Origin: SAR86 cluster bacterium
GTDB lineage: Bacteria; Pseudomonadota; Gammaproteobacteria; Magnimaribacterales; Magnimaribacteraceae
Direction of reading: 5' to 3'
DNA: 64,000 nt
Assembly: GCA_029268615.1 (NCBI GenBank)
Contig: JAQWNM010000007.1
Span: 1-64,000 of the forward strand
Part shown: positions 8,802-25,818 of the stretch, piece after piece
Layout of the letters: every line of letters starts with the position of its first letter
Position numbering within the stretch: position 1 is the stretch's first letter
The notes under the pieces: generated by a model
The model's input: only the letters and a program-made list of their open reading frames with translations
Database searches by the model: none
Told to the model about the DNA's origin: nothing
Position numbers and translations under genes: made by a program

Positions 8802-8876
8802 TATTTTATTTTTATAAATCCAATAGATTCATAATAATCTCTGTTCCCGCCCACTTTCTAACAGTAGAATAGCAAA

Positions 8877-10064: not shown

Positions 10065-10146
10065 GTTAATAAAATTGAGCTAGTATGATTTTATTTATAT
10101 TAAATAAAGAATGTCTAGAATTACTTTCTAAAAAAGGTTAAGAATA

Positions 10147-10782
10147 GTGCAAATAGTACTTTTATCTGACATACATGGAAATCTTCCTGCTCTTGAACGT
10201 GTAATATCAGAAACAAAAACAGAAAACTCTTATATCGTGATGGGCGATGTTGTGAACTATGGCCCTTGGGGGAATGAATGCGTTGAATTACTAGACAGTT
10301 TAGACGATTGCATTACATTGAGAGGAAACCATGAAGATTATTTCATCAATGGAGTTTGCACAGCAAATAGCCATTTGTGTGAAAGATTCTTTGATGTATG
10401 TTTTGAAAAGTTTTCTCAACAACAAATTATTGAGAATTACTTGGATCATTATTATTTAGATGATTTTAAATGTATCCATACGATAGAGGATCAATATATT
10501 TTCGAGGATACAGAAATACCGCTGGATCAAAATTACATAATAGGTCATTCGCATAAACAATTTAAAAAAGAGTACAAAAAATATTCGTTAATAAACCCAG
10601 GAAGCGTGGGTCAGAATCGCCAGTTTATTAATGAGATAAATTTTGCTCTTTTAGATAGAGAAACTGGGGCGGTTGATTTTAGAAGCATGCTTTACGATGT
10701 AGATGCTGTCATAAATGAAATGCTCAAAAAAGGTTATCCTAAGGAATGTTTGGATTATTACAGATTGAAGGATAGAAAGTGA
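10147..10782 (+). CDS. Calcineurin-like metallophosphoesterase
   Basis: The 211-residue protein carries the dimetal phosphoesterase motifs in order: LSDIHGN (residues 5-11), GDVVNYGP (~33-40), RGNHEDY (~59-65), then GHSHKQF (~136-142) and NPGSVGQNR (~154-162). This matches the YfcE/family 2 phosphodiesterase type. It probably cleaves a phosphomonoester or diester. In this setting it may act on a sugar phosphate or nucleotide by-product of the glycan pathway, which is inference. The GTG start is the first in frame. Its stop overlaps the start of the ATP-grasp gene (GTGA), so the two are translationally coupled. Confidence 0.82.
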   Translation: MQIVLLSDIHGNLPALERVISETKTENSYIVMGDVVNYGPWGNECVELLDSLDDCITLRGNHEDYFINGVCTANSHLCERFFDVCFEKFSQQQIIENYLDHYYLDDFKCIHTIEDQYIFEDTEIPLDQNYIIGHSHKQFKKEYKKYSLINPGSVGQNRQFINEINFALLDRETGAVDFRSMLYDVDAVINEMLKKGYPKECLDYYRLKDRK

Positions 10783-11768
10783 ATATATTAGTAACAGGAT
10801 CTGGCTCACTGCTAGGGCAGGGGATTATAAAGTCCTTAAAAAGTTCTAATTTAGATTTTGAACTTTATTCAACTGATTACTTTTCCTCTGCTGTAGGCCT
10901 TTATTGGGCAAATAAATCCTTTTTAATGCCAGATATCCTAAAAGATTCAGTGTCTGAAGATAGTTGGTTAGAAGCATTAAAAGAAATAATTATCTCTCAT
11001 GAGATCGAGATAGTAATCCCGGGCCTTGATTTTGAGATACCGATTCTCGCAAAACATAAAGATGCTATAGAAAAAGATACCGGATCTTTTGTAATTGTGA
11101 GTCCAGAAAAAGTGGTCACAATAGGGAATGATAAATGGGAAACCTATAAATTTCTTAAGGAAAGTGGATTAATTTTTCCGGAGTCTTCTTTGCCCGAAGA
11201 CAGAGAAGATTTTCTGTCAGATAATAATTACCCTTTAATCGTTAAACCTCGTTTTGGACATACTTCAAAAGATGTCTTTATTGTCAATAATATTGAAGAA
11301 TTAAAACGAGCATTAGATAAAGTAGATAGGCCGATTATCCAGGAATATCTCGGTAGTGCTGATGAAGAATATACCTGTAGTACAGTTTTTGTAGAAGAAT
11401 CAATAATAAGCACTATAAGCCTTAAAAGAACTTTAAAAAATGGAAACACTCATGTTGCTTTCTTAGAAGAGTATGAAGAAATAGATGATTACATAAATGA
11501 AGTAACCAAAGTGCTTAGGCCTCATGGCGCTACGAATTTTCAATTGAGATTAACTGAAAAAGGACCAGTCATTTTTGAAATCAATCCAAGGTTTTCTGGA
11601 ACAACCCCAATCAGATCAATATTTGGAGTTAACGAAGTAGAAGCTTCTATACAAGCCATTTTATTTGAAAACTATAATCAAGAGTTTATAAAAAAACCTG
11701 GGGTAGTGATTAGATACATGGAAAGTGAATTTGTTGAATGGAAAAAATATAATTCTTTCAAAAATTGA
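10779..11768 (+). CDS. ATP-grasp ligase of the glycan island
   Basis: The 329 residues have a Rossmann-like pre-ATP-grasp domain (ILVTGSGSLLGQGIIKSL, ~1-105) and a CarB/PylC-like ATP-grasp domain. YPLIVKPRFGHTSKDVFIV (~150-168) binds nucleotide, PIIQEYLG follows, and NFQLRLTEKGPVIFEINPRFSGTTP (~248-272) carries the Mg-binding E..N pair. ATP-grasp enzymes join a carboxylate, activated as acyl phosphate, to an amine or thiol. In this cluster it could attach an amino acid or other acyl group to an amino sugar; the substrates cannot be read from sequence. It overlaps both neighbours by four bases. Confidence 0.82.
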   Translation: MNILVTGSGSLLGQGIIKSLKSSNLDFELYSTDYFSSAVGLYWANKSFLMPDILKDSVSEDSWLEALKEIIISHEIEIVIPGLDFEIPILAKHKDAIEKDTGSFVIVSPEKVVTIGNDKWETYKFLKESGLIFPESSLPEDREDFLSDNNYPLIVKPRFGHTSKDVFIVNNIEELKRALDKVDRPIIQEYLGSADEEYTCSTVFVEESIISTISLKRTLKNGNTHVAFLEEYEEIDDYINEVTKVLRPHGATNFQLRLTEKGPVIFEINPRFSGTTPIRSIFGVNEVEASIQAILFENYNQEFIKKPGVVIRYMESEFVEWKKYNSFKN

Positions 11769-12616
11769 ATATTCTAATAACCGGCTCTCACGGGTTTGTT
11801 GGCAAGAGCTTAACAAATCATTTGGGTAAAAATTATAGCGTTTTTGGTTTAGGACGTTCAAAAAAAAATAAAATTAACCCTAAGAATGAATTTGAGGTTA
11901 ATTTATTAGATAAAGCAGATATAGAAGATTTTCTGAAACAAGTTAAAAAAAATGGTTTAAGAGACTGGCAGACAATTATTCACTGCGCTGGAGTTCCTGC
12001 GTCTCAAAATCCAATAAAAGATGGAATAGTTTTAAAGAATAATAATCATATCAATGAACACGTTGCAGATTTAGCTAGAGAGCTATCGCCGTCAGTTTTC
12101 ATAAACCTTTCCTCTATGTCTGTTTATCCTTATGAAGATGGAAATTTTTCTGAGGAGTCTAAATGCGAACCTTTTAAGAATTCAGATTTCTATTATGGGT
12201 TATCTAAATTGAATGGAGAAATGATTTTGTCTAATGCGTTAGCAGAAACAACCTCCAGACTGGTAAACCTGAGGGTAGCCCAAGTATACGGAGAAGGAAT
12301 GAGAGCGGATAGAATTATTCCGGTCATGCTTAATGAGTTAAAAAAAGAAAATAAAATAACTGTATTTGGCGAGGGAGAGAGAAAGACAAATTTCATAGAA
12401 ATTAGAGATCTTTGCAAAGTTATTGAATATTTTCTTATATCCTCTAATGAGGGAACATACAATGTGGGTAAAGAAAATATATCACTACTAGAACTAGCTA
12501 CAAGGCTGATAAAATCAAAAGGCAATAAGGATTCTTCCGTTAACTTAGTAAAAGAAGGAAAAAGAGAAAAATTTATCCTTGATACTTCAAAATTAAGAAA
12601 ATTAATTGAAATATAG
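11765..12616 (+). CDS. NAD-dependent epimerase/dehydratase (extended SDR)
   Basis: A 283-residue extended SDR with the N-terminal NAD(P) motif TGSHGFVG (6-13), the NLSSMSVYP strand with catalytic Ser, and the YYGLSK catalytic pair Tyr144/Lys148. Downstream, RVAQVYGEGM and NFIEIRDLCKVIEYFL match GalE/RmlD-like sugar-nucleotide enzymes. Epimerase, dehydratase or reductase activity on a nucleotide sugar is expected; specificity is unknown. Start is a TTG overlapping the previous stop (TTGA). It ends a coupled trio (phosphoesterase, ATP-grasp, SDR) and is followed by a 107-base gap containing a hairpin. Confidence 0.82.
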   Translation: MNILITGSHGFVGKSLTNHLGKNYSVFGLGRSKKNKINPKNEFEVNLLDKADIEDFLKQVKKNGLRDWQTIIHCAGVPASQNPIKDGIVLKNNNHINEHVADLARELSPSVFINLSSMSVYPYEDGNFSEESKCEPFKNSDFYYGLSKLNGEMILSNALAETTSRLVNLRVAQVYGEGMRADRIIPVMLNELKKENKITVFGEGERKTNFIEIRDLCKVIEYFLISSNEGTYNVGKENISLLELATRLIKSKGNKDSSVNLVKEGKREKFILDTSKLRKLIEI

Positions 12617-12648
12617 CCTCTAGTTATAATGAAATAAATAATGAGTAG

Positions 12649-12674
12649 ACTATTATTTAATATTCAATAATAGT
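12649..12674 (+). promoter_or_regulatory. Inverted repeat in the gap before hisF2
   Basis: ACTATTATT (12649-12657) and AATAATAGT (12666-12674) are perfect reverse complements around an 8-base centre. No T-run follows, so this is not a standard terminator. It could be an RNA processing hairpin or an operator dividing the island into sub-operons. It lies in the largest gap inside the island (107 bases). Confidence 0.35.
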
Positions 12675-12723
12675 AATATCGCGCCCCATATAGGGATTTA
12701 AATATAATTAAGAAGATTAATTC

Positions 12724-13614
12724 ATGATAAGAATCATTCCAAGGTTAGATATAAAAGGACCAAATGTTGTAAAAGGCCTCTGTTTTGACGGTTATAGAGT
12801 GTTAGGCAAAGCTGATAGATTAGCCGAATTGTATTACAAAGAGGGAGCCGATGAACTTTTTTTTCAGGATGCAGTCGCCAGCTTGTACGAAAGGAATAAT
12901 TTATTAGATATGATAAGCCTCGCAGCCGAAAAGGTTAGAATTCCTATAACTGTTGCTGGAGGGATGAGGAGTATAGACGATGTGGGAGAAGTGTTGAGAG
13001 CTGGAGCAGACAAGGTAGCTATCAATACTGCAGCAACTAAGGATCCTTCTTTTATAGAAAGAGCAGCCAAAAAATTTGGATCTCAATGCATTGTTCTTTC
13101 CATAGAGGCAAAAAGAAGAACAGAAAAAAAATATGAAGCTTGGGTTGATTACGGCCGTCAGCCTACGGGCATAGATGCTTTTGAGTGGGCAAAGCGTGGA
13201 GAGGATTTAGGCGCTGGAGAAATTTATCTTTCGTCTGTAGACCAAGATGGCTCGGGAGAAGGGTATGAAATAGATTTAATCCATGAGGTTTCATCCAAAG
13301 CTTCAATCCCAGTTATAGCCTCTAGTGGGGCTGGAAGTTTGGTTGACTTTCATAAGGTTATTGAAGAAGGAGAAGCAGATGCCGTTTCAGCAGCTTCAGC
13401 ATTTCATTACCATTACTTCGATAAATTTATGGATGATTTAGCAGGCGAGGAAGGCGGAGAGTTAAGAATGGGGAAACAGGAAGATTTAGGGAATTTAGAA
13501 TTTATTAGGGAAGGATATGGAGGCTTTGATGCCATTCAAGTAGATCCCTTTTCTATAAAATCTGCCAAAGATTATCTTCAAGATAAAGGCATAAAAATAA
13601 GAATAAGCCAATAA
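12724..13614 (+). CDS. hisF: HisF2/WbuZ-type synthase subunit for acetamidino sugar formation
   Basis: A 296-residue HisF-like (beta/alpha)8 barrel (RIIPRLDIKGPNVVKG, ITVAGGMRSIDDV, AGADKVAINT, SSVDQDGSGEGYE, IPVIASSGAG). Next to HisH and WbuX it belongs to the HisF2/WbuZ (AglZ) group. That group is thought to pass glutamine-derived ammonia to an N-acetyl sugar amidotransferase rather than to make histidine. The Asp equivalent to Thermotoga HisF Asp11 is kept as Asp9. The Asp130 equivalent is Glu128 (SIEAKR in place of the usual DAKR), consistent with loss of the histidine-pathway cyclase reaction. The C-terminus is longer than in true HisF. hisH follows after 11 bases. Confidence 0.87.
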   Translation: MIRIIPRLDIKGPNVVKGLCFDGYRVLGKADRLAELYYKEGADELFFQDAVASLYERNNLLDMISLAAEKVRIPITVAGGMRSIDDVGEVLRAGADKVAINTAATKDPSFIERAAKKFGSQCIVLSIEAKRRTEKKYEAWVDYGRQPTGIDAFEWAKRGEDLGAGEIYLSSVDQDGSGEGYEIDLIHEVSSKASIPVIASSGAGSLVDFHKVIEEGEADAVSAASAFHYHYFDKFMDDLAGEEGGELRMGKQEDLGNLEFIREGYGGFDAIQVDPFSIKSAKDYLQDKGIKIRISQ

Positions 13615-13625
13615 ATCTAGTATAA

Positions 13626-14261
13626 ATGCAGAAAATAACTTTGATAGATTATGACATGGGTAATACTTTCAGTGTCACTAGAGCCCTTGAATCTTTTGGG
13701 TGTGAAGTAGAGTTTTCAAATGACCCTAGCATAATAGAAAATTCTAGCAAACTAGTGCTTCCGGGTGTTGGCGCCTTTGAAGATGGAATAAGCAACCTTA
13801 AATCTCTTAATCTTGACAAGGCTATTATCAATTTCGTAAATAAGGGAAACCCTATTCTTGGTATCTGCGTTGGAATGCAATTAATGATGAGCAGGTCAGA
13901 AGAAAATGGAAATCATGAAGGGTTAAATATTGTCGAAGGAGACGTTTTAAGGTTTGACGAAAGTAAGTCTGAAAACAACAAGTTTAAAATACCTCAAATT
14001 GGGTGGAATCAACTTAATATTAAGTCAAATTTATCAAAAAGTAAGATTCTAAGTGCAATGAATGAAGAGCCCAGTATGTATTTTTTACATTCTTACTTTG
14101 TTGATCCTTTAGATAAAGATATAGTTTTAGCCGAAACTTCATATGGAGAGAATACATTTTGTTCAGCGTTTGAAGACAATAATATTTATGGTTTTCAATT
14201 TCATCCAGAAAAAAGCGCAGAAGACGGACTTCAACTCTTGAAAAATTTTATTGAACTTTAA
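13626..14261 (+). CDS. hisH: HisH-type glutamine amidotransferase subunit
   Basis: The 211-residue class I glutaminase has the complete triad: Cys81 in GICVGMQL, His193 and Glu195 in FHPEK. The LPGVGAFEDG oxyanion-strand motif (~45-54) is typical of HisH. It hydrolyses glutamine and delivers ammonia through the paired HisF-like barrel. Placed between hisF2 and the PP-loop amidotransferase gene with gaps of 11 and 6 bases, it is the nitrogen donor of the acetamidino module (WbuY role) rather than a histidine enzyme. No other his genes are in the window. Confidence 0.9.
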   Translation: MQKITLIDYDMGNTFSVTRALESFGCEVEFSNDPSIIENSSKLVLPGVGAFEDGISNLKSLNLDKAIINFVNKGNPILGICVGMQLMMSRSEENGNHEGLNIVEGDVLRFDESKSENNKFKIPQIGWNQLNIKSNLSKSKILSAMNEEPSMYFLHSYFVDPLDKDIVLAETSYGENTFCSAFEDNNIYGFQFHPEKSAEDGLQLLKNFIEL

Positions 14262-14267
14262 TTAATT

Positions 14268-15482
14268 ATGACTGAAAAAAAATTCACTACGCTAGATAAA
14301 CAGTGGGACGAGATACCTAAAGAGGTAGTTTTTTGTAAAAACTGTGTAGTTTCAAATCAAAGACCTAGAACAAAGTTTAATGACGAGGGCATTTGCTCTG
14401 CTTGTGTTTGGGCTTTAGAAAAAGATGTAATCATTGATTGGGATCAAAGAGAAAAAGAACTGGAAGAACTTTGCGATAAATTTAGAAGTAATGATGGAAG
14501 TTTTGATGTGGTTGTCCCCGGCAGCGGAGGTAAAGATAGTGCATTTGTAGCACATCAACTCAAGCATAGGTACAACATGCACCCTTTATGCGTTACTTGG
14601 TCTCCTTTTGAATATACGGATGCGGGGTGGACGAACATCAAAAATTTTATTAATGCGGGTTTTAACAATATTTTGGGCCAACCCGATGGAGCATTGCATA
14701 GAAAATTAACTAAGCTAGCCTTTGAGCTTAAAGGTGATGCATGGGAACCGTTTGCGTATGGTCAAAAAGCTTGGGCCTTTCATATAGCTACTAGATTTGG
14801 GGTCAAACTAATAATGTATGGTGAAAATGGAGAACTTGAATATGGAGGTTCAGAAAAATATAAGCATTCACCCAAAGAGGGCCCAGAAGAATGGGAATAT
14901 GAATACTTTAAAGGTGCAAGCGTCGATGATCTTGTAGATAAAGGCATAGAAAAAGGAGTTTTAGAGAAAAGTGAGGTCGAAGAAAATACCTTTCAACTAT
15001 ACAAGCCTCCTAATCCAGAAGATGTATTACAATCTGGAGCGGAAATGCACTGGTATTCTTATTATCAAAGGTGGACGCCTCAGGAGAATTATTATTATGC
15101 CTATAAACATACTGGCTTTAGGCCTAATCCAGAAGGTAGGTCTGAAGGTACATATACTCAATATGTTAGCTTAGATGATAAACTAGATGGCATTCACTGG
15201 TATCAGAGTTATGCAAAGTTTGGCATGGGTAGAGGCTCTAGGGATGCACAAACAGACATAAGGCGTGGGCACATAACAAGAGACGAAGGAGTGGCTTTGG
15301 TTGAGAAGTATGATGGAGAAATACCCAAACGGGATCTTGCTTTTTTCCTAGATTACATAGATATAGATGAAGATTTTTTCTGGGAAGTGATTGACCAGTA
15401 TAGAGAAATTTCTAATGTTTGGGAAAAGGTAAATGGAGAGTGGGTGATGCCCCATTTACCTAAGAAAACAACAAACTACTAA
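14268..15482 (+). CDS. wbuX: N-acetyl sugar amidotransferase (WbuX/PseA type)
   Basis: A 404-residue PP-loop enzyme. The ATP pyrophosphatase motif SGGKDS is at residues 86-91. Two CxxC pairs (Cys23/Cys26 and Cys43/Cys46) form an N-terminal zinc site. The family (WbuX in E. coli, PseA in Campylobacter) converts an N-acetyl group on a sugar to acetamidino by ATP-activated amide amination, using ammonia from HisH/HisF partners. Both partners precede it directly. Expected product: an acetamidino-bearing sugar, plausibly a nonulosonic acid since neuB-type and CMP-transferase genes follow. Its length is usual for the family. Confidence 0.9.
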   Translation: MTEKKFTTLDKQWDEIPKEVVFCKNCVVSNQRPRTKFNDEGICSACVWALEKDVIIDWDQREKELEELCDKFRSNDGSFDVVVPGSGGKDSAFVAHQLKHRYNMHPLCVTWSPFEYTDAGWTNIKNFINAGFNNILGQPDGALHRKLTKLAFELKGDAWEPFAYGQKAWAFHIATRFGVKLIMYGENGELEYGGSEKYKHSPKEGPEEWEYEYFKGASVDDLVDKGIEKGVLEKSEVEENTFQLYKPPNPEDVLQSGAEMHWYSYYQRWTPQENYYYAYKHTGFRPNPEGRSEGTYTQYVSLDDKLDGIHWYQSYAKFGMGRGSRDAQTDIRRGHITRDEGVALVEKYDGEIPKRDLAFFLDYIDIDEDFFWEVIDQYREISNVWEKVNGEWVMPHLPKKTTNY

Positions 15483-15541
15483 AAAATTTTTTACACTCCG
15501 AGTAGTTTTATATTAGGAATTCATTGAAAGAATAGTTTGGT

Positions 15542-16477
15542 ATGCATGATTTAAGTCATTCAGTAATGTTTCATCACTTTCACAATGAAACACATCCACA
15601 AGGCCAGGGTTCTCTTGACACGAACAATTTTAATAAAATGTTAGACTGGTTAAAATCTAACTATAACTTGCTTTCAGCAGATGATTATTTAAAAAAGGCT
15701 TTGAGTTCTTCATTAGAAAAAGATGATATCTGTCTTTCTTTCGATGATGCTTTGTTGTGTCAATATGAAGTGGCATTTCCAGTATTAGAAGAAAGAAATA
15801 TTAAGGCATTCTTTTTTATCTATTCATCACCTCTAAATAATCAGGTTGATTATTTAGAAATTTTTAGATTTTTCAGAACAATTAGCTATGAAACAATACA
15901 TGAATTTTATGCTGATTTCTTTTCTGTTTATAAAATAGAAAATTTTAATGAATTCCTCAAAGAAAAGGAAAAATATAATAAATTGGACTATTTGAGTGCC
16001 TTTGAATTTTATTCAAATGACGATAAATGGTTTAGATATATAAGGGATCAAGTTCTCACCAGTGAAAGTTATCAAGCTATAATGTTAAAACTTCTAGAAA
16101 AGAAAGATTTCGATATGGAGGCAGCTACGTCTCAGCTTTGGATGACTGACGAGCACATTAGTGATTTAAACTCAAAGGGTCATATTTTAGGCTTACATTC
16201 TTATAATCACCCAATGACAATACAAAAGTTGTCGTATTCCGAACAGCAACTAGAGTATAAAGAGAATTATGATCATTTGAAGAAAGTTATTGGAGAGACT
16301 AAAATTATAACCATGTCCCATCCTTGTGGAAACTATAATCAAGATACTTTAAAAGTTTTGAAGGATATGGGAATAAAAGTAGGTTTTCTTTCTAGCATGG
16401 CCGGTACAAAAATTAATTCTCTTCTAGAGCTTCCTAGGGAAGATCAAGCAAATGTAGCAAGAGAAATGAATCTATGA
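15542..16477 (+). CDS. Polysaccharide deacetylase (NodB/CE4 family)
   Basis: The 311 residues contain the CE4 signature: SFDDA (66-70) gives the catalytic base and metal Asp, and HSYNH (~204-208) matches HSxxH for the other metal ligands. SHPCGNYNQDTLKVLKDMG (~264-282) corresponds to motif 3 onward. A helical insertion lies at about 105-190. No signal peptide is seen, so it probably acts in the cytoplasm on a sugar-nucleotide or lipid-linked substrate. Its stop overlaps the formyltransferase start (ATGA), a coupling that hints at removal of an N-acetyl group and its replacement with formyl. That pairing is inference. Confidence 0.8.
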   Translation: MHDLSHSVMFHHFHNETHPQGQGSLDTNNFNKMLDWLKSNYNLLSADDYLKKALSSSLEKDDICLSFDDALLCQYEVAFPVLEERNIKAFFFIYSSPLNNQVDYLEIFRFFRTISYETIHEFYADFFSVYKIENFNEFLKEKEKYNKLDYLSAFEFYSNDDKWFRYIRDQVLTSESYQAIMLKLLEKKDFDMEAATSQLWMTDEHISDLNSKGHILGLHSYNHPMTIQKLSYSEQQLEYKENYDHLKKVIGETKIITMSHPCGNYNQDTLKVLKDMGIKVGFLSSMAGTKINSLLELPREDQANVAREMNL

Positions 16478-17253
16478 GAATTACTGTTTTTACTAGTAAT
16501 CAAGCCCGCCATATATCCTTGATAGAAAATTTAGCAAACATTTGTGACGAACTTTATTGTGTTCAAGAATGTAATACAATTTTTCCTGGATCTGTTGAAG
16601 ATTTTTATAAAAAGACAGATATTATGCAAGAGTACTTTGGGTCTGTATTAAATGCAGAAAAAAAAATATTTGGGAAACCTTCTTTTCTTCAAAAGAATAT
16701 AGTTAGTTTTTCCATCAAGGTAGGCGACTTAAGTTTATTAGATAAAGAATCCCTTTCAAAATGCCTCCAGTCTGATATTTATATTGTTTTTGGTGCCAGT
16801 TATATCAAAGGATGGCTTGCCGAATATTTAACTTCAAAAAATACAATAAATATACACATGGGGGTTTCTCCTTATTACAGGGGTTCTTCATGTAATTTTT
16901 GGGCTTTATATGATGAAAACCCTTCCTATGTAGGCGCTACTATTCACAAATTATCTAAAGGATTAGACAATGGACCTATTCTTTATCATTGCTTGCCTAA
17001 ATATAAAGGAGAAAGCGTTTTCGAGTTCACCATGAATTCGGTAAAGATAGCCCATCAGTCTCTCATTGAGAGGATATCAAGTGAAGAGATATTTGATATA
17101 AAGCCTATTGAACAAGATCGCTCCTTAGAAGTGCGATATACTAAAAATATGGATTTTACTGACAAGGTAGCCTCTGAATTTTTACAGAGAGCCATTATAT
17201 TAGACAAGACGAGCTTTAATTATCCTGATCTTGTGAATCCTTATTTTGGATGA
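16474..17253 (+). CDS. Formyltransferase-family enzyme (sugar N-formyltransferase candidate)
   Basis: A 259-residue protein with the formyl-transferase N-terminal fold. The catalytic trio is present as Asn126 and His128 (INIHMG) and Asp165 (GLDNGPI), spaced as in methionyl-tRNA and sugar N-formyltransferases. YYRGSSCNFWALYDENPSYVGATIH is the usual core between them. It should transfer formyl from N10-formyl-tetrahydrofolate to an amine. Its position in a diamino-sugar island and coupling to the deacetylase gene suggest an amino sugar acceptor. It lacks a clear C-terminal Fmt tRNA domain, so it is not fmt itself. Confidence 0.82.
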   Translation: MRITVFTSNQARHISLIENLANICDELYCVQECNTIFPGSVEDFYKKTDIMQEYFGSVLNAEKKIFGKPSFLQKNIVSFSIKVGDLSLLDKESLSKCLQSDIYIVFGASYIKGWLAEYLTSKNTINIHMGVSPYYRGSSCNFWALYDENPSYVGATIHKLSKGLDNGPILYHCLPKYKGESVFEFTMNSVKIAHQSLIERISSEEIFDIKPIEQDRSLEVRYTKNMDFTDKVASEFLQRAIILDKTSFNYPDLVNPYFG

Positions 17254-17320
17254 TTGTTAAGGGTTAAAACTGGATCTTTATTAAATAAGCATTTTTACTT
17301 CGTATAAGACTTTGAAAGAC

Positions 17321-19096
17321 ATGTATATTTTAGGAATAAGTATTAGCCATAATTCTTCAGCAGCTTTAATGCGTGACGGAGAGATTGTTAGTGCTTGTTG
17401 CGAAGAAAGATTTACGAAAACTAAAAATTATATTGGCTTCCCCAAACAATCAATTGATTACATCCTTAGAAAAGAAGGAATATTAGGTTCAGATTTAGAT
17501 AACGTTGTTTTTACAACTGTTAATAATTCGGGGATTTACGTTAAGTCCAAGAATAGCACTTCTTTTAATCTGCAGGATTATTATAACTATTATGGCCCCA
17601 AGTATTTTGGAAAAAGAATGAAAGGAGAAGATACTCTCGATTATAAGAAATGGTTAAGGGACGATATAAAATTTAATCAAGATGTGGAGTATTTAGATTT
17701 TAAGTTTTTAACAGATGAGGTTCTGTCAGATCCAGTTAAAGATGAAGAGCTTTTTGCTGACAAATGCTGTGAATTTTTGATTGAAACATGGGGTGTAGAA
17801 AGCAGAAAAATAGTCTTTGCAGATCACCATACATGCCATGCTAATTATGCTTATTTTGGTTCACCTTTTCGTGATAAAGCCTGCATAGCAGTTACTTTAG
17901 ACGGATGGGGAGATGGCAGGAATCAAACTGTATGGGAAATAAAAAACAATGATTTAAATTTATTAGCTGATTCAGATCAAAATGATTTGGGAAGAATTTA
18001 TAAATTTGCAACTTTATTATTAGGGATGAGACCAGATGAGCATGAATTTAAAGTTATGGGCATGGCTCCCTATGCAAAGGAATCATATGTAGAAAAAGCC
18101 AAATCAGTAATAAAAGATATATCAGATGTAAAAGGCTTAAAAATAGTATCGAAGAACCGACCTCCAGATCTTCTCTCTTATCTTGAAAAGGAATGGAAAT
18201 TTCATAGATTTGATAATATTGCTGGAGCCGTCCAACTTTATACTGAAGAAATAGTAAGCAAACTATTTACGAATATCTTTGAAGAGACGGGGATTAAAAG
18301 GTTTGTTATTAGTGGCGGAATAGCTATGAATATAAAGATGAATAAAGTTTTAGGAGAATTAGACACAGTAGAGGAGTTTTTTGTTTGCGGATCAGGTGGA
18401 GATGAGAGCTTAGCTATAGGAGGTTGTTATTTTATAAATGCTAAAAAAAGTAAACCGCTTGACCATTTATATTTAGGCTATGACGCTGAAGATGATATTT
18501 CAAATTTAGAAACTATAATTAAGGATAAGAATTTTAGAATAATAAGTGATCCAGGAAATGAATTAGTAGCTAGCCTATTAAAAGATGGAGATATAGTAGG
18601 CTTGATTGATGGGAAAGCAGAATTTGGAGCTAGAGCTTTAGGTAACAGAAGTATTTTAGCAAATCCCAGCCTCAAAGGCTCTGTTCAAAGAATTAATGAG
18701 GCTATCAAGAATAGAGATTTTTGGATGCCCTTTGCCCTTTCAATATTGGATGAAGTGCATGAAGAATATATAAGCAATCCTAAGAATTTTAGCTCGCCAT
18801 TTATGGCTATTGGTTTAGATTCAAAAAAGAGTACATATGAATCTATACAAGCAGGCACTCATCCTTATGATAGGTCTGTAAGACCTCAATTTGTGAGAAA
18901 GGATGCAAACTTAAATTACCATAGTTTAATAGATGAATTCTATCGAATATCAGGGATTCCAGCCCTACTAAATACTAGCTTTAACTTACATGGTGAACCA
19001 ATAGTTAACAATATTAATGATGCTGTTAGGACGTTTGAACTTTCTGGTTTAGACCATCTCTTTATTTGCAATAAATTCCTATTGAGTAAGAATTAA
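17321..19096 (+). CDS. Carbamoyltransferase (NodU/CmcH family)
   Basis: A 591-residue carbamoyltransferase. The N-terminal Kae1-like domain starts with YILGISISHNSSAAL and holds the metal-site HHTCH (residues 169-173) and LDGWGDG (193-199). SGGIAMNIKMN follows. The C-terminal YrdC-like portion includes EFGARALGNRSI and NTSFNLHGEPIV, both strongly conserved. Family members move a carbamoyl group from carbamoyl phosphate to a hydroxyl on a sugar or antibiotic. The glycan island is the likely source of the acceptor. The ATG at 17321 is preferred to an in-frame TTG at 17312 because the family begins at MYILGIS and GAAAG lies just upstream. Confidence 0.88.
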   Translation: MYILGISISHNSSAALMRDGEIVSACCEERFTKTKNYIGFPKQSIDYILRKEGILGSDLDNVVFTTVNNSGIYVKSKNSTSFNLQDYYNYYGPKYFGKRMKGEDTLDYKKWLRDDIKFNQDVEYLDFKFLTDEVLSDPVKDEELFADKCCEFLIETWGVESRKIVFADHHTCHANYAYFGSPFRDKACIAVTLDGWGDGRNQTVWEIKNNDLNLLADSDQNDLGRIYKFATLLLGMRPDEHEFKVMGMAPYAKESYVEKAKSVIKDISDVKGLKIVSKNRPPDLLSYLEKEWKFHRFDNIAGAVQLYTEEIVSKLFTNIFEETGIKRFVISGGIAMNIKMNKVLGELDTVEEFFVCGSGGDESLAIGGCYFINAKKSKPLDHLYLGYDAEDDISNLETIIKDKNFRIISDPGNELVASLLKDGDIVGLIDGKAEFGARALGNRSILANPSLKGSVQRINEAIKNRDFWMPFALSILDEVHEEYISNPKNFSSPFMAIGLDSKKSTYESIQAGTHPYDRSVRPQFVRKDANLNYHSLIDEFYRISGIPALLNTSFNLHGEPIVNNINDAVRTFELSGLDHLFICNKFLLSKN

Positions 19097-19154
19097 TACT
19101 TTGTATAAAGCCTATTTGGTTTAAGCTACACTCAATATTTTCAGTGGTTTTATT

Positions 19155-20372
19155 ATGATTCAGGAAATAAGTATTCTCTCTAAAAACATTAATACTTCAA
19201 ATAAATGGTTATTGATTGGGGTCAAAGAAAGGGAGATTCTTAATGAAAATAATTTTAAAAATCAAGACAATAAAAATAAAATTAAATTTTTCTTTCTCAT
19301 ATTTTTAAGCTTCTTAAATATTTTAGTTACTTTTTTTATACATAAATGGTCCGGTTTGAAAGGGGGATTTGAATCTCTTCCCGAACATTTGGTAGTGAAA
19401 TCTGACAGAAGTTATAGGCATCATAATTATTTAAGGCATATAAATAAAAATAAAGTTTATCCCTATAGAATTTTTGAAGTTTTTAATCGAAAGAGTTATG
19501 CAAAGCTAAAGAAGTTAAAATTTTCTAAAATTCTATTTCATTTTATAAAGCAATATCAGTTAATAAATAAGTTTTGTGAGGAATATAGAGGACTTAGGAT
19601 TAGTAAACTGGTTAAAGAAAATGCCTTATTAAATTTAGCTCCTTACTCCTTCTTTTTAGCTTTATTTGAAGAGATAAAGCTAGATACCCCTAAGATAAAT
19701 ATTTTTCATAGCGGCTCTCATTTATTGGCTCTGGCAGCAAATAATTCGGGAATTTCATCTACTCATTTAACACACGGCCTTGTTATCAACAATTTGTATT
19801 CTAGTTATGCTGACGATGATCACATTTATGTTTATTCAAAGGAGGAGGCAAATTTTTTTGAAGAGTTTTGGCCAAATGCAAAAGTTTCAATATATCCAAT
19901 GCGAAAAGTGGAAACAAAGTTAAAAAAAATAATAGGCTTCTTACAATATGAGTCTACCTTCGATGATGTCAAAAAAAAAGACCTGTTGGATTTATTAAAT
20001 TTCTTTAATGGGATGTCTTATCAAGTCCTTGTAAAGCCTCACCCTGCTACTGATATTGAATCTATTAAAGCCTTAAAAGCTTTATCAAATGATTTAAATA
20101 TATTAGAACATGATGAAATTTCTACAAATGAATTGCTGGTCGAGCAATCTCCAATGTTTACTTTTGGTTGGTCATCTACCGCACTATGTGAATCATTAAG
20201 AAGTGGAATAATCCCTATTAATTTATCTCCTGAAGATGATGAGCATATGTTTATGCCTTATCCTTTTTCTAAAAGGGCTTTATCTTGGGCAAAAGACAAA
20301 GAATTAATTAAAGGTATAGTTGAAAATAAAGTAGATTACCTAGGCGCTCTTGCTCATTTAATAGATCAATAA
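19155..20372 (+). CDS. Candidate GT-B glycosyltransferase, possible nonulosonyltransferase
   Basis: No family is certain. The 405-residue protein has a hydrophobic segment at residues 43-63 (membrane-associating) and basic stretches. Its C-terminal half holds KPHP (294-297) and GWSST (338-342, Ser340-Ser341-Thr342) followed by a PINLSPEDDE loop. An HP motif and an S-S/T motif at this order and spacing are the marks of bacterial sialyl/polysialyltransferases of the GT38/GT52 type, and also occur in some CDP-polyol transferases. As the gene lies directly before the NeuB-type synthase gene, transfer of a CMP-nonulosonic acid is the favoured reading. The N-terminal D/E-D/E-G motif is not obvious. 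Confidence 0.5.
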   Translation: MIQEISILSKNINTSNKWLLIGVKEREILNENNFKNQDNKNKIKFFFLIFLSFLNILVTFFIHKWSGLKGGFESLPEHLVVKSDRSYRHHNYLRHINKNKVYPYRIFEVFNRKSYAKLKKLKFSKILFHFIKQYQLINKFCEEYRGLRISKLVKENALLNLAPYSFFLALFEEIKLDTPKINIFHSGSHLLALAANNSGISSTHLTHGLVINNLYSSYADDDHIYVYSKEEANFFEEFWPNAKVSIYPMRKVETKLKKIIGFLQYESTFDDVKKKDLLDLLNFFNGMSYQVLVKPHPATDIESIKALKALSNDLNILEHDEISTNELLVEQSPMFTFGWSSTALCESLRSGIIPINLSPEDDEHMFMPYPFSKRALSWAKDKELIKGIVENKVDYLGALAHLIDQ

Positions 20373-20432
20373 TTTAGGTATTAAAAATTACAAATTTTGT
20401 TTTCTGTCTAGAAATTTAAGTACACTAGGATA

Positions 20433-21446
20433 ATGTTTAACTCAAATAATCAGGTCTATGTCATAGCAGAGGCAGGGGTAAATCATAATGGTGACTTAAT
20501 AAGAGCATTAGAAATGATATCAATAGCCAAAGATGCGGGTGCAGATGCAATAAAATTTCAAACAGCAGTACCAGAAGATGTGGTTACTAGATCCGCTTCT
20601 AAAGCAGAGTATCAAAAAAATCCAAATGATAATGGGCAGACTCAATTAGATATGATAAAAGAAATACACCTCCCTTTATCTGATTATAAGACACTGAAAC
20701 ATGAATGCGACGCATGCGGTATAGAGTTTATGTCTTCGGCATTTGATCTCAAAAGTCTTAAATACTTAAGAGATTTAGGTCAGAATTTTTTTAAGGTTCC
20801 GTCTGGTGAAATAAATAATTACCCATATTTATACGCTGTCGGCAAAATCTCTAAACCGGTCATTTTATCAACTGGTATGTCTACTTTAGTGGAGGTAAAT
20901 CAGGGAATAGATGTTCTGTTGGAGGCGGGGCTCACAAAAGAATTTATCACATTGTTACATTGCAATACAGAATATCCAACCCCTATTGAAGATGTTAATT
21001 TAAATGCTATGTTAACTTTAAGGGATGAATTCAATCTTTCAGTGGGTTATTCAGATCATACTCTTGGACAGGAAGTATCTATTGCAGCAGTTGCGATGGG
21101 CGCAAAGGTTATCGAAAAGCATTTCACCTTAGATAAGGAGCTACCTGGACCTGATCATCGAGCTAGTTTGGGGCCGAATGAATTATCTAACTTTGTAATA
21201 GCTATAAGAAATATAGAAAAATCCTTAGGATCTTTTGTTAAAAAGCCTTCACCTAGTGAATTTAAGAACATTGAAATTGTCAGGAGATCAATAGTGGCAA
21301 AAGAATCTATTAAAAAAGGAGATTTGTTTACAGAAGACAATGTGACAACTAAGAGGCCAGCACTTGGAATTTCTCCTATGAAATGGAAGGAGATACTAGG
21401 AACTAAAGCTTCAAAAGATTATCATCTGGATGACTTAATAGAATAA
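20433..21446 (+). CDS. Nonulosonic acid synthase (NeuB/LegI/PseI family)
   Basis: A complete 337-residue synthase. The N-terminal NeuB barrel has VIAEAGVNHNGD, AIKFQT, FMSSAFD, FKVPSGEINNYPYL, ILSTGMST, LHCNTEYPTP, VGYSDHT and KHFTLDKELPGPDH. A C-terminal SAF/antifreeze-like domain (~275-337) contains RRSIVA and DLFTEDNVTTKRPALGISP. It condenses phosphoenolpyruvate with a hexosamine to give a nine-carbon acid. LHCNTEYPTP (Asn-Thr rather than the Thr-Ser common in sialic acid synthases) favours a legionaminic/pseudaminic-type substrate, but family placement needs a tree. It precedes the LegC-type aminotransferase gene. Confidence 0.9.
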   Translation: MFNSNNQVYVIAEAGVNHNGDLIRALEMISIAKDAGADAIKFQTAVPEDVVTRSASKAEYQKNPNDNGQTQLDMIKEIHLPLSDYKTLKHECDACGIEFMSSAFDLKSLKYLRDLGQNFFKVPSGEINNYPYLYAVGKISKPVILSTGMSTLVEVNQGIDVLLEAGLTKEFITLLHCNTEYPTPIEDVNLNAMLTLRDEFNLSVGYSDHTLGQEVSIAAVAMGAKVIEKHFTLDKELPGPDHRASLGPNELSNFVIAIRNIEKSLGSFVKKPSPSEFKNIEIVRRSIVAKESIKKGDLFTEDNVTTKRPALGISPMKWKEILGTKASKDYHLDDLIE

Positions 21447-21498
21447 AGATATGCTGACTAAAATTAAAGACATTCAATCTAGATCTTAGACTTTTAAA

Positions 21499-22647
21499 AT
21501 GATTGAAGAATTCAATACTCTGGTAAGAGATTTATATAAAACCTCAGATGTTATTTCTTTGCATGAACCATGCTTCATTGGCAAAGAAAAAGAATATTTA
21601 TCTGAAGTTATAAGTTCTACTTTTGTTTCCAGCGTTGGAAAATCAATAGGAGAATTTGAAAAGAAAATTGCAAGTTATATGGGCTTAGATCATGCTGTAG
21701 CAACTTCAAATGGAACTTCAGCTCTACACTTGTCTCTATTAGTATCAGGAGTTAGTCAGAATACTGAAGTAATAACTCAGTCTTTAACTTTTGTAGCGAC
21801 ATGTAATGCTATAGATTATTGTGGAGCAAGCCCAGTTTTTGTTGACATAGATAAAGAAACTTTGTCTATGTCGCCATTAAGTTTATTAGAATTTTTGGAT
21901 AAATATGCAGAAGTCAGAGATGACGGCTCATGTTGGAATAAAACATCAGGAAAAGAGATAACGGCTTGCTTGCCTATGCACTCATATGGCTTTCCAGCCG
22001 CCATTGAAGAAATAAACCTTATTTGTTCTAGATTCAACATTCCTTTAGTTGAAGATTGTGCAGAATCTTTGGGAAGTTTTTATCACAAAAAACATACTGG
22101 CTCTGAGTCACTTTTATGTGCTCTCAGTTTTAATGGCAATAAAATAATTACTACAGGTGGTGGAGGCATGGTGTTAACAAACAACCTTGATTTATCAAAT
22201 AAAGTAAGACACCTCTCTACAGTAGCAAAGATAGAGCACCCTTGGGAATTCAATCACGATAAGGTGGGTTTTAATTATAGGATGCCAAATTTAAATGCAG
22301 CTCTTGGACTGGCACAAATTGAATCCTTAGATAAATTTTTGGTTAGTAAAAAATCTTTAGCTAGCTGTTACTATGATTGGGGAAAAGAAAGAGGAATGGT
22401 TTTTCATAGAGGGCAACAAGATACTTCACCAAATTACTGGCTAAATTGTTTAATCACTGAAAATCTTGAATCAAGAGACAAGTTTATTAGAGAAACAAAT
22501 AAAAATAATATAAGAACTAGGCCTTCATGGAATCCTGCCCATTCTTTACCCCCTTATCAAGATTGCCAAAGAGATAGACTAGAAAATACATCTTGGGCTT
22601 TTGAAAGACTTGTGAATGTTCCTAGTTCTCCAATTTTAGATCTATGA
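21499..22647 (+). CDS. LegC-type sugar aminotransferase (DegT/DnrJ/EryC1)
   Basis: A 382-residue PLP enzyme of the DegT family. The PLP lysine is Lys215 in SFNGNKIITTGGGG. ATSNGTSALHL (~68-78) and VEDCAESLGSFY (~184-195) bind the cofactor, and NYRMPNLNAALGLAQIE is a family signature. The overall pattern matches LegC, which aminates C-4 of a 4-keto-6-deoxy nucleotide sugar towards legionaminic acid. It would act on the product of the dehydratase encoded at 8877. The stop overlaps the Gfo/Idh start (ATGA). Confidence 0.87.
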   Translation: MIEEFNTLVRDLYKTSDVISLHEPCFIGKEKEYLSEVISSTFVSSVGKSIGEFEKKIASYMGLDHAVATSNGTSALHLSLLVSGVSQNTEVITQSLTFVATCNAIDYCGASPVFVDIDKETLSMSPLSLLEFLDKYAEVRDDGSCWNKTSGKEITACLPMHSYGFPAAIEEINLICSRFNIPLVEDCAESLGSFYHKKHTGSESLLCALSFNGNKIITTGGGGMVLTNNLDLSNKVRHLSTVAKIEHPWEFNHDKVGFNYRMPNLNAALGLAQIESLDKFLVSKKSLASCYYDWGKERGMVFHRGQQDTSPNYWLNCLITENLESRDKFIRETNKNNIRTRPSWNPAHSLPPYQDCQRDRLENTSWAFERLVNVPSSPILDL

Positions 22648-23648
22648 GTAGAGTAGACAATTTTCTTATAATAGGCAGTGGAAGTATGGCCCGTCGTCAT
22701 TCTCAAAATTTGAGGCTATTGTTTCCTAAAAGCAAAATAGGTAATTTACCCGGTTCGTCTTCCAACTCAAATATAGAAAACTCCTTGGTAGACGAATTAT
22801 TTCAAAGTCCAGAAGAGGCAAGGAAATTTAACCCTAAATTTGTGGTAGTTGCATCATCGGCTAATTTACATTTAACTAATGCGGCAGAGTTTTTGCAACA
22901 TGATATACCAACATTAATAGAGAAGCCCTTATGTAAAGACCTGGAGGAATTTAAAAAATTTAAAAGGCTTTTATTCAGTAAAAAAAACCTTTTAGATTTT
23001 GGCTATTGCTTAAGATACCAAGAGGGAGCCTTAAAATTTAAGGAAATAATTACTTCCAGAATTCTGGGGAAGGAATATTCTATCATTGTAAACGTAGGGC
23101 AATATTTACCTGAGTGGCGACCGGGGCTAGATTATAAAAAAAGTGTTTCAGCAAATAAGAGTTTGGGTGGTGGTGTTTTATTAGAGCTCAGCCATGAATT
23201 AGATTATTTAAATTGGATATTCGGCATTCCAGATTCAGTATTTTGTAATATTTTGAGTATAGGGAATTTAGATATAGATGTTGAAGATAATATTGATGCA
23301 ATATTAATGAAATCAAGAGGTTGTAATATTAATCTCCATATGGACTTTTTACAAAAACCACCTACTAGGTTTTGCAAAGTTATAGGTGAAAATGGAGTTT
23401 TAATATGGAACCTCTTAGAAAATTCAATTTCTTTAGAAAATAAAAATGAGAAAAAAACATTATTTGAAGAGCCAGATTTGGATCGTAATAAAATGTTTTT
23501 AGATATGTTGTCTCGCTTTTCTATTTTAGCGAATGGTGAGTTAAACCCTCTTATTTCTCTTGAAGAAGCTCTAAATGTTATGCATCTTATATCTGGTTTA
23601 GAGCTATCTCATCTTCAGAGGTGCGCAATAAATATAAAGAGAATTTAA
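22644..23648 (+). CDS. Gfo/Idh/MocA family oxidoreductase
   Basis: The 334-residue protein has the N-terminal Rossmann motif IIGSGSMARRH (~9-19), the EKPLCKDL motif (~93-100) that orients nicotinamide, and GGGVLLELSHELDYLNWIFG (~174-193), typical of the C-terminal dimer domain with its catalytic histidine region. It probably oxidises or reduces a nucleotide sugar or acyl-sugar. Such genes often sit next to neuB/CMP-synthetase genes in nonulosonic acid loci. It overlaps the aminotransferase gene by 4 bases and the CMP-sugar synthetase gene by one (TAATG). Confidence 0.85.
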   Translation: MSRVDNFLIIGSGSMARRHSQNLRLLFPKSKIGNLPGSSSNSNIENSLVDELFQSPEEARKFNPKFVVVASSANLHLTNAAEFLQHDIPTLIEKPLCKDLEEFKKFKRLLFSKKNLLDFGYCLRYQEGALKFKEIITSRILGKEYSIIVNVGQYLPEWRPGLDYKKSVSANKSLGGGVLLELSHELDYLNWIFGIPDSVFCNILSIGNLDIDVEDNIDAILMKSRGCNINLHMDFLQKPPTRFCKVIGENGVLIWNLLENSISLENKNEKKTLFEEPDLDRNKMFLDMLSRFSILANGELNPLISLEEALNVMHLISGLELSHLQRCAINIKRI

Positions 23649-24331
23649 TGACAATGAAAACTTTTGCTTTTATATTTGCCAGAGGCGGCTCTAAAGGTCT
23701 TCCGGGCAAGAACTTAAAAAAATTAGGCAATACCCCTTTAATAGGCCATTCAATAAATCTTGCTAAGTCTATAGATCTAGTTGACGAAGTTTTTGTATCC
23801 ACAGAATCAAAAGAAATAAAAAGCGTCTCAAAAGATTTTGGTGCAGAAATAATAGATAGACCATCATCGCTCGCTTTAGATGAGAGCTCTGAATGGGAGG
23901 CTTGGCAACATGCTGTAAAGCATTTAGAGTCTAAGAATAGACATTTTGATTATTTCCTTAGCCTGCCGCCTACTGCACCTCTTAGGCAAGAGTCAGATGT
24001 ATTGAAGTGTTTTGATTTAATTGCGAGTAATGTAGATGTCGTCATAACAGCTTCACCCTCTCAAAGAAATCCTTACTTTAATATGATTTTTAGAGAAAAA
24101 GATGGCACTTCTAAATTAATCTTTGAAACCAATCCAGTTCATAGACGCCAGGATGCTCCAGAAGTGTATGACGTTGCAACGGCAGCATATTTATCAAAAC
24201 CATCTTTTATTCTTAATAATAATGGAATTTTTGATGGAAAAGTCAAGTCAGTTATAATTCCTAGAGAAAGAGCTGTGGATATTGATGACCAAACTGATTT
24301 TTTACTAACTAAAACTCTGTATGAAGAATAA
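23648..24331 (+). CDS. CMP-nonulosonic acid cytidylyltransferase (NeuA/LegF family)
   Basis: The 227-residue cytidylyltransferase has the nucleotide-binding motif FARGGSKGLPGKN near the N-terminus and LPPTAPLR in place of the usual LQPTSPLR. VDIDDQTDFLL, the C-terminal metal and substrate loop, is intact. It charges the nonulosonic acid with CMP for transfer. The ATG at 23648 overlaps the previous stop (TAATG); an ATG six bases on is also possible, while an in-frame GTG at 23621 lies inside the previous gene and is unlikely. The product lacks the C-terminal phosphatase domain of some NeuA enzymes. Confidence 0.88.
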   Translation: MTMKTFAFIFARGGSKGLPGKNLKKLGNTPLIGHSINLAKSIDLVDEVFVSTESKEIKSVSKDFGAEIIDRPSSLALDESSEWEAWQHAVKHLESKNRHFDYFLSLPPTAPLRQESDVLKCFDLIASNVDVVITASPSQRNPYFNMIFREKDGTSKLIFETNPVHRRQDAPEVYDVATAAYLSKPSFILNNNGIFDGKVKSVIIPRERAVDIDDQTDFLLTKTLYEE

Positions 24332-25094
24332 CTTAAATTTAAAAGGAAAAACAATCATCCTAGCAGGGGCTTTAGGAAGAATAGGTAAAACCTTATCTAA
24401 TGATCTTCTTGAACAAGGTGCATCTGTAATAGCTTTAGATATTCAAGAATCTAACCCTAAAGAGCACAAACATCAGGAGCATAAAGATTATGATTATCAA
24501 ATGGGAGATGTATCAAATGGTGCGTCAGTTGATTCTTTGTTTGATTATGGGGTAAAAAAGTACGGAAAAATAGATGGAGCCATAAATACTTCTTACCCAC
24601 GTAATGAGAACTTTGGAAGACATTTTTTTGACGTAGAGTATGAAGATTTTTGTGAAAATATCTCTTTACATTTAGGAGGATATTTCTTGTTCATGCAAAA
24701 ATGCGCTAAATTTTCTGCTTTAAATGATCTGTCCTTTTCTTTGGTTAATTTTTCTTCAGTATATGGTGTAATTGCACCAAAATTTGATATGTATGAAGGA
24801 ACAGATATGACTGTTGCAGTCGAATATGCAGCCATAAAACCAGCTATTCAACATCTTACAAAATATGTTGCTGCCTATACTAAAGGCTCTAATTTTAGAG
24901 TTAATTGTATTTCCCCAGGAGGTATTCTTGATGGTCAAGATCCAAAGTTTTTAGAAAGATACAAAAAAAATTCTAGAACGAAAGGCATGTTAGACCCTGA
25001 AGATCTTAGTGGAACGGTTTTGTTTTTATGCTCTGATATGTCTAAATCTATTTGCGGTCAAAATATTATTGTTGATGATGGTTTCACTTTATAA
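24321..25094 (+). CDS. Short-chain dehydrogenase (PtmA-like)
   Basis: A 257-residue classical SDR. GALGRIG (16-22) replaces the usual TGxxxGIG, the catalytic residues Ser145/Ser146, Tyr169 and Lys173 (EYAAIK) are present, and VNCISPGGI and GQNIIVDDGFTL close the fold. It resembles PtmA, the SDR of Campylobacter flagellin-modification loci, next to the CMP-synthetase gene. It probably oxidises or reduces a pathway intermediate. It overlaps the previous gene by 11 bases and is the last clear sugar gene of the island. Confidence 0.83.
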   Translation: MKNNLNLKGKTIILAGALGRIGKTLSNDLLEQGASVIALDIQESNPKEHKHQEHKDYDYQMGDVSNGASVDSLFDYGVKKYGKIDGAINTSYPRNENFGRHFFDVEYEDFCENISLHLGGYFLFMQKCAKFSALNDLSFSLVNFSSVYGVIAPKFDMYEGTDMTVAVEYAAIKPAIQHLTKYVAAYTKGSNFRVNCISPGGILDGQDPKFLERYKKNSRTKGMLDPEDLSGTVLFLCSDMSKSICGQNIIVDDGFTL

Positions 25095-25149
25095 ATATTA
25101 ATTTATAGTATTTATTGAGGGCCGCTGACAATTTTTTTAAATAAATAAC

Positions 25150-25818
25150 ATGAGTCAATATAAGTACCTTAGCATTCCCGCAATATTTATCTTAGAGGCA
25201 GAGATGCCCCAAGAGATGCTTGATGAGATTAATAGTTATTTAGATAAGGCTATTAATTCTGATTTATCTTTAACAAATGCTGACAGATTAATAGGTCAGG
25301 GAGAAACGATAGAGCAATTGAGGCTTGACCCTAAAGAAAAAGCGTTTGGAGCCTTTTCTGAAATAGTTTTAACTTTGGGAGTAGAATATATCAAACGATA
25401 TTCTGAAAACACAAAAGAATACTTCAGAAAAACTAAGAAATTAGAGATAGATTCTCTTTGGTCCGTCCATAGCTATGCAGGAGATTACAACCCCCTCCAT
25501 GATCATCTAACAAAAACTACGATGGGTATTTCGTTTACGGGCTGGACTAAAATCCCAGAACAAATAGGTTCGCACGGCATCGATATGTATAATGCTTCAG
25601 GAGCTAGCGATGGCTTTATTAATTTTACTTGGGGAAGTACTTCTCTTACAGATAAAGAACGTTTAAGGCCCAAAAATAACATTTTACTAGAACCTAAAGA
25701 AGGCAAACTACTTTTCTTTCCTTCCTGGGTTCAACATACAGTTTATCCTTTCAGGGGCGAGGGAGAAAGAAGGACTATAGCTGGAAATATAAATTGTTGG
25801 GATGTTGAAGACAAATAA
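25150..25818 (+). CDS. Putative 2-oxoglutarate/Fe(II) oxygenase
   Basis: A 222-residue protein resembling the 2OG-FeII_Oxy_5 group. HSYAGDYNPLHDHL (107-120) has the proximal iron ligands in HDH (117-119). A double-stranded beta-helix follows, with FFPSWVQHTVYPF (189-201) giving the distal ligand His196, and Arg207/Arg208 can bind the 2-oxoglutarate carboxylate. The reaction would be hydroxylation of an unknown substrate. It starts 55 bases after the SDR gene on the same strand, so it may tailor the same glycan or a protein; this is inference. Confidence 0.7.
   Translation: MSQYKYLSIPAIFILEAEMPQEMLDEINSYLDKAINSDLSLTNADRLIGQGETIEQLRLDPKEKAFGAFSEIVLTLGVEYIKRYSENTKEYFRKTKKLEIDSLWSVHSYAGDYNPLHDHLTKTTMGISFTGWTKIPEQIGSHGIDMYNASGASDGFINFTWGSTSLTDKERLRPKNNILLEPKEGKLLFFPSWVQHTVYPFRGEGERRTIAGNINCWDVEDK

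Follow-up and report, generated by a model that had tools for sequence, protein, structure and literature searches.

In the window, by which we mean the whole stretch of 64,000 nucleotides of SAR86 cluster bacterium DNA analysed here, an intact gene of 405 codons lies beside genes for the synthesis of a nonulosonate. Its product is best explained as a membrane-attached GT-B transferase that takes a nonulosonate, probably of the legionaminate type, from its CMP form, and that is related to glycosyltransferase family GT38 with a putative histidine as base. We consider this reading reasonably probable. The initial annotation had proposed a CMP-nonulosonate transferase, and this is still what best accounts for the motifs, the GT-B models, the threshold-level Pfam match to GT38, the linkage to NeuB- and NeuA-type genes and the finding of no other glycosyltransferase match among the 18 cluster ORFs scanned. 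The protein is no plain member of the sialyltransferase families, because a histidine-glycine pair (HG) replaces the acidic motif of those enzymes.

The gene and its neighbourhood

Reading of the interval for open reading frames found no rival ORF on the minus strand, which has stops throughout. Residues 45–63 form a hydrophobic segment of 19 residues with a mean Kyte-Doolittle value of 2.33, a putative membrane anchor. A segment of the same length, with a mean of 1.64–2.33, is found within the first 128 residues in all nine members of our alignment of relatives (referred to here as A3).

The gene belongs to a run of genes on the same strand, extending from 8877 to 25818. Upstream are genes for a PF02719 dehydratase, an ATP-grasp protein, an epimerase, HisF-like and HisH-like proteins, a WbuX-type amidotransferase, a polysaccharide deacetylase, a formyltransferase-like protein and a carbamoyltransferase. 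Downstream are NeuB, a LegC-family aminotransferase, an oxidoreductase, a cytidylyltransferase, a PtmA-like dehydrogenase and a 2-oxoglutarate oxygenase (Table 1). NeuB is only 60 bp downstream of the candidate and scores over the TIGR03569 cut-off. Two features pointed out initially, the adjacent synthase gene and the membrane-associating segment near the N-terminus, are thus both borne out.

The HisF-, HisH- and WbuX-type genes suggest a sugar modified with an acetamidino group. From its gene content, the cluster would make a legionaminate-type sugar, perhaps carrying such a group. Among the 18 cluster ORFs scanned (8217–25818) no match to a NeuC/LegG-type epimerase was found, and the sugar pathway is therefore incomplete in the window. 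The carbamoyltransferase is NodU-like, and its gene (window 17312–19096) is directly upstream of the candidate; it suggests a carbamoylated sugar in the glycan.

Table 1 Features of the candidate gene and its neighbours, with window coordinates
Feature	Position	Strand	Evidence
Candidate CMP-nonulosonate transferase	19155..20372	+	405 aa; PF07388 at threshold; GT-B AlphaFold model
Hydrophobic N-terminal segment, putative membrane anchor	19287..19343	+	Kyte-Doolittle
H207-G208, invariant HG at the place of D/E-D/E-G, putative catalytic base	19773..19778	+	9/9 in A3
K294-P-H-P297, (K/R)xHP CMP-binding motif (predicted)	20034..20045	+	8/9 aligned relatives
E326, possible counterpart of MhPST E323 (ribose)	20130..20132	+	Spacing
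W339-S-S-T-A-L-C-E346, S-S/T motif and following Glu	20169..20192	+	Conservation in A3
HisF-like, HisH-like and WbuX-type N-acetyl sugar amidotransferase genes	12724..15482	+	WbuX 336.8 over 203.2; HisF-like; GATase
NeuB-type nonulosonate synthase	20433..21446	+	TIGR03569 469.7 bits, cut-off 399.65; Pfam NeuB 4.1e-92
LegC-family aminotransferase	21499..22647	+	TIGR04181 493.1 bits, cut-off 420
CMP-nonulosonate synthetase-like cytidylyltransferase	23621..24331	+	PF02348 4.9e-19; PseF 126.1 bits, below cut-off 205.7
PtmA-like short-chain dehydrogenase	24321..25094	+	NF006619 325.9 over 255; NF050062 PtmA 225.6, below 350

Family and predicted fold

Pfam gave one meaningful match, to A-2_8-polyST (PF07388, GT38), covering the C-terminal half. 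By hmmscan it scores 22.5 bits against a cut-off of 23.3, and in a PF07388 search of the genome the candidate reaches 24.6 bits against the same cut-off. The profile was also run on eight relatives, two of which pass (G200 with 30.6 and G193 with 31.0), the other six being without a match. Alignment of the nine A3 relatives with six PF07388 proteins using hhalign gave a probability of 84% and an E value of 7e-6, again over the C-terminal half only, with HP placed on HP and SST on SST. The corresponding probabilities were 36% for Capsule_synth, 1.9% for CDP-glycerol transferases and 1.0% for GT52, the last being represented by a single sequence, so that GT38 is the family preferred by profile-profile comparison.

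The D/E-D/E-G triplet that defines GT38 (E153 in the Mannheimia haemolytica polysialyltransferase, MhPST) and that also marks GT80 is absent anywhere in the candidate protein, and for this reason we do not place it in GT38. The family had at first been called unclear. For the C-terminal half, which sides with GT38 in the profile comparisons, this can now be sharpened; it is still a fair description of a protein that has HG where the base motif belongs and is no plain member.

The GT52 profile PF07922, together with PF04464 and PF05159, is not among the Pfam matches of the candidate at E values up to 1, and none of the three matches anything in the whole genome at 1e-6. The candidate has no match in NCBIfam, PADLOC or PHROGs and no relatives in the PDB (phmmer and profile A3), and sequence searches of plasmids, phages and viral contigs gave none either. 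By sequence there was no confident match to a family that does not use CMP.

Two AlphaFold predictions were run, each from the same three sequences, with either the candidate or its relative L028 placed first. The candidate model has a pLDDT of 69 and a pTM of 0.53, and the L028 model 67 and 0.50. Both contain two Rossmann domains, and most of each chain can be matched to GT-B structures; a fold lacking this arrangement, which would speak against the proposed function, was not seen. For the candidate model Foldseek places two GT38 structures, 5wcn and 5wc6, first and second (E 6e-7 and 2.5e-6). With VIA these have Z scores of 11.6 and 12.0, values tied with those of other GT-B enzymes, the match at 12.0 being 4.4 Å over 252 residues with 18% identity; the GT38 identities of 18–19% are the highest among the VIA matches listed. 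For the L028 model, UDP-GlcNAc 2-epimerases and other GT-B enzymes lead, and GT38 is at rank 49 by Z (9.9) and is not among the best 50 Foldseek matches. GT52, GT80, KpsC and TagF itself are not among the fold matches listed for either model. The GT-B fold is supported by both models, and its kinship to GT38 by one.

These results bear on the possibility that the protein, as a GT-B enzyme for the same surface glycan, works with a different donor, such as a UDP- or dTDP-sugar, and stands beside the nonulosonate genes without transferring their product. The L028 model fits UDP-binding GT-B folds best. There is a precedent in Bacillus subtilis SpsB, an HP-bearing protein encoded beside Leg genes, where Leg is reported to reach the spore surface without SpsB (PMC7439481). 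Moreover, glycan genes cluster anyway, so the linkage to NeuB describes the context of the gene and names no donor. Against this, (K/R)xHP paired with S-S/T signals CMP/CDP in the solved cases reported (PMC5517516, PMC12887879), and, besides the candidate, no ORF among the 18 scanned in the cluster matches a glycosyltransferase family. We regard use of another donor as rather unlikely.

Putative CMP-binding motifs and base

The (K/R)xHP motif is described as a CMP-binding motif common to sialyltransferases and retaining Kdo transferases (PMC12887879), where it serves the cytosine and the phosphate (PMC12887879, PMC5517516). In MhPST, cytosine is reported to be read by a lysine and backbone atoms, the phosphate by a histidine and a Ser-Thr pair, and the ribose by a glutamate (PMC5517516). 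The candidate has KPHP at residues 294–297 and SST at 340–342, and the distance of 43 positions from P297 to S340 is as first read. S341-T342 is 45 residues past H296, compared with an H-to-S spacing of 48 in MhPST. In the AlphaFold model of the candidate, HP comes after predicted strand 290–295 and SST before helix 342–349. In A3, [WF]xS[ST] is found in all nine members, with a glutamate four residues past the S/T in seven.

In 20,000 composition-keeping shuffles of the candidate protein, [KR]xHP by itself turned up in 5.8%, and together with an SST 38–50 residues later in 0.01%. Among the 63 window ORFs of at least 150 aa, only the candidate has this combination. A chance origin of HP and SST was dropped in view of the 0.01%.

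The candidate has a putative counterpart for each CMP contact of MhPST, and the ribose glutamate could be either E326, at the GT38-like place, or E346, as in KrkA. The column of E326 in A3 contains Glu in five of nine and Gln in two, and in the hhalign alignment the GT38 glutamate falls one column off it. E326 as a conserved ribose ligand was dropped, since Glu is present in only 5/9 as against 7/9 for E346. The correspondences with MhPST follow the order and spacing of the motifs, because no residue-by-residue alignment came out of the PF07388 searches of the PDB, in which neither profile A6 nor its member L029 reached the MhPST chain.

GT38, GT52 and GT80 are reported to have in common a D/E-D/E-G motif that includes the catalytic acid (PMC2169525, PMC5517516). 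It reads DEG, EDG or DDG in all six PF07388 proteins. Where this motif would fall, each of the nine aligned relatives has HG, the residue before it being T, S, L, Q or E, and in the weak hhalign match to Capsule_synth T-H-G is aligned on E-E-G. HG is 87–99 residues from HP in the eight of nine A3 members that keep HP, compared with 127–140, counted from the second acid, in the six PF07388 proteins. It is just after strand 201–204 in the candidate model and directly after strand 187–192 in the L028 model, with a pLDDT below 50 there in both. In TagF, H444 of a WHG motif is described as the likely base, with QHG or QYA at that place in other enzymes (PMC11666461). Because HG replaces the acid motif, and because the WHG histidine of TagF is the likely base, we propose that H207 is the likely general base, with no acidic residue in that role.

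On this basis we infer the donor, the acceptor, the side of the membrane and the roles of the residues as follows. The nonulosonate made by the neighbouring genes would be transferred from CMP onto a glycan acceptor at the inner membrane, on its cytoplasmic side. The C-terminal Rossmann domain would bind CMP as in GT38, with the cytosine held by K294 and P297, the phosphate by H296 and S341/T342, and the ribose by E346 (or E326). The N-terminal domain would supply H207 of HG as the general base.

A histidine at this place also raises the question of a TagF-like CDP-polyol or hexose-phosphate transferase, in which HG would be the base histidine and HP would hold the diphosphate. In TagF, H444 and H584 occur in the same order, and QHG is reported in hexose-phosphate transferases (PMC11666461); TarL (8va1) is at row 17 of the Foldseek matches of the L028 model, with an E value of 1.1e-4. 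However, PF04464 has no match and the profile match to CDP-glycerol transferases is very weak, as given above. No glycerol-3-phosphate cytidylyltransferase scored over the cut-off in the candidate's genome or in six relatives, weaker cytidylyltransferase-like matches being present in all seven, and the neighbouring genes would make CMP-nonulosonate. We judge such a transferase decidedly unlikely. Still less credence can be given to a CMP-Kdo transferase of the GT99, GT107 or GT140 type, which resembles the candidate in (K/R)xHP, S-S and a Glu four residues on, as in KrkA (PMC12887879), and which has in Capsule_synth the second-best profile match, but whose QxxxD motif with its nucleophilic Asp (the criterion for Capsule_synth/GT99 and GT107) is absent from the candidate and, after HG, from eight of nine aligned relatives, while PF05159 is unmatched and the clusters carry NeuB. 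The ninth A3 member has QLSFD just past HG. The same likenesses, and the same lack of QxxxD, hold for the retaining Kdo/Pse transferases including GT118, and the aligned Capsule_synth protein has EEG in contrast to HG.

Among the closest known systems are the GT38 polysialyltransferases (PF07388; MhPST, 5wc6/5wcn), which provide the best profile match and the best Foldseek match of the candidate model and share the GT-B model, both CMP motifs and an N-terminal hydrophobic segment. The candidate differs from them in HG, in the shorter HG-HP spacing, in matching over the C-terminal half, and in that the L028 model does not single GT38 out. Tannerella forsythia GtfS and TFUB4_00887 are reported as transferases of Pse and Leg derivatives, knock-outs of which lose the sugar (PMC6388019). 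Compared by their description, they also have HP and are tied to CMP-nonulosonate genes, but are reported with both D/E-D/E-G and HP (PMC6388019).

Relatives and their linkage to nonulosonate genes

A first scan of the genome contigs found no relative. A search of the candidate's own genome found the candidate and a paralog with 31% identity as the only such genes. Counting the candidate's own genome each time, matches were obtained in 2 of 61 genomes of relatives, 6 of 203 at the level of the order, 3 of 369 of the class and 3 of 398 of the phylum; a wider profile matched 5 of 266 class genomes, again including the candidate's own, one match of these, in G258, being dropped because it reads as a GT4-like protein. 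This gives 11 homologous loci: the candidate and its paralog (both in G000), G002, G122, G193, G200, G170, G558, G279, G575 and G665. Two of these were left out of A3, namely G170 (E 1.5e-4, C-terminal only) and G279 (split over two contigs).

NeuB is within 15 kb on the same contig in seven of the 11 loci (the candidate, G122, G193, G200, G170, G558 and G279). In G002, NeuC-, NeuD- and LegC-like genes adjoin and NeuB is on another contig. The paralog, G575 and G665 have no NeuB nearby; in G575 a cytidylyltransferase-like ORF, below cut-off, is about 1 kb away. The relatives in G558 (L020:9070–10422) and G279 (L021/L022) keep HG and WxST and have HP replaced by RPTP or RPTI. They have lost the HP histidine and yet are in nonulosonate clusters, so the active site is not uniform in the family. 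This loss and the three loci without a nearby NeuB weigh against our main reading, whereas the linkage in the other loci speaks for it.

Few transferases for legionaminate-type sugars are known, as far as the open-access literature shows, and others may exist. The nonulosonate transferases with evidence that we found there are GtfS/TFUB4_00887 (PMC6388019), Maf proteins and the Pse transferase KpsS1 (PMC12887879). Titles and abstracts of open-access papers yielded no description of an HG-type nonulosonate transferase, and a search for SAR86 with legionaminic acid returned a match on Leptospira instead. We tentatively suggest, as a possibility short of an even chance, that the proteins form a separate family of CMP-nonulosonate transferases with a histidine (HG) base, combining the CMP-binding half of a sialyltransferase with a TagF-like base and carried in the nonulosonate clusters of Proteobacteria, uncultured marine ones among them. 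The signature HG ... (K/R)xHP ... [WF]xS[ST]xxxE could flag such enzymes in genomes where GT38, GT52 and GT80 searches fail, and would make it testable whether a histidine base can drive sialyl-type transfer.

Some further observations were made in the course of these comparisons. The paralog (G000:C7:139731–140957; L004:8732–9961) shares the contig with the candidate, at a distance of about 119 kb. By reading, it has a phosphatase-like ORF on one side and acyl-CoA dehydrogenase-like genes on the other; the 19 kb compared contain nothing related to the nonulosonate genes. Two proteins outside A3, L061:9013–10218 (G392) and L062:9138–10418 (G363), have no Pfam match and by reading contain QHG/PHG, KSHP/KLHP and TT or ST with a Glu, in the general pattern S/T-T/V-xx-E; they adjoin LegC/NeuD-like genes or NeuB, and may widen the family. 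The cytidylyltransferase ORF at L017:7456–7902 has 148 aa, as against 232 aa in the close relative L018, so that the gene may be broken or the assembly faulty there; the L018 chain has X residues that come from Ns in the assembly. Finally, L016:15176–17065 encodes a NeuB of 629 aa with a SAF domain and a C-terminal xylose-isomerase-like TIM barrel (PF01261).
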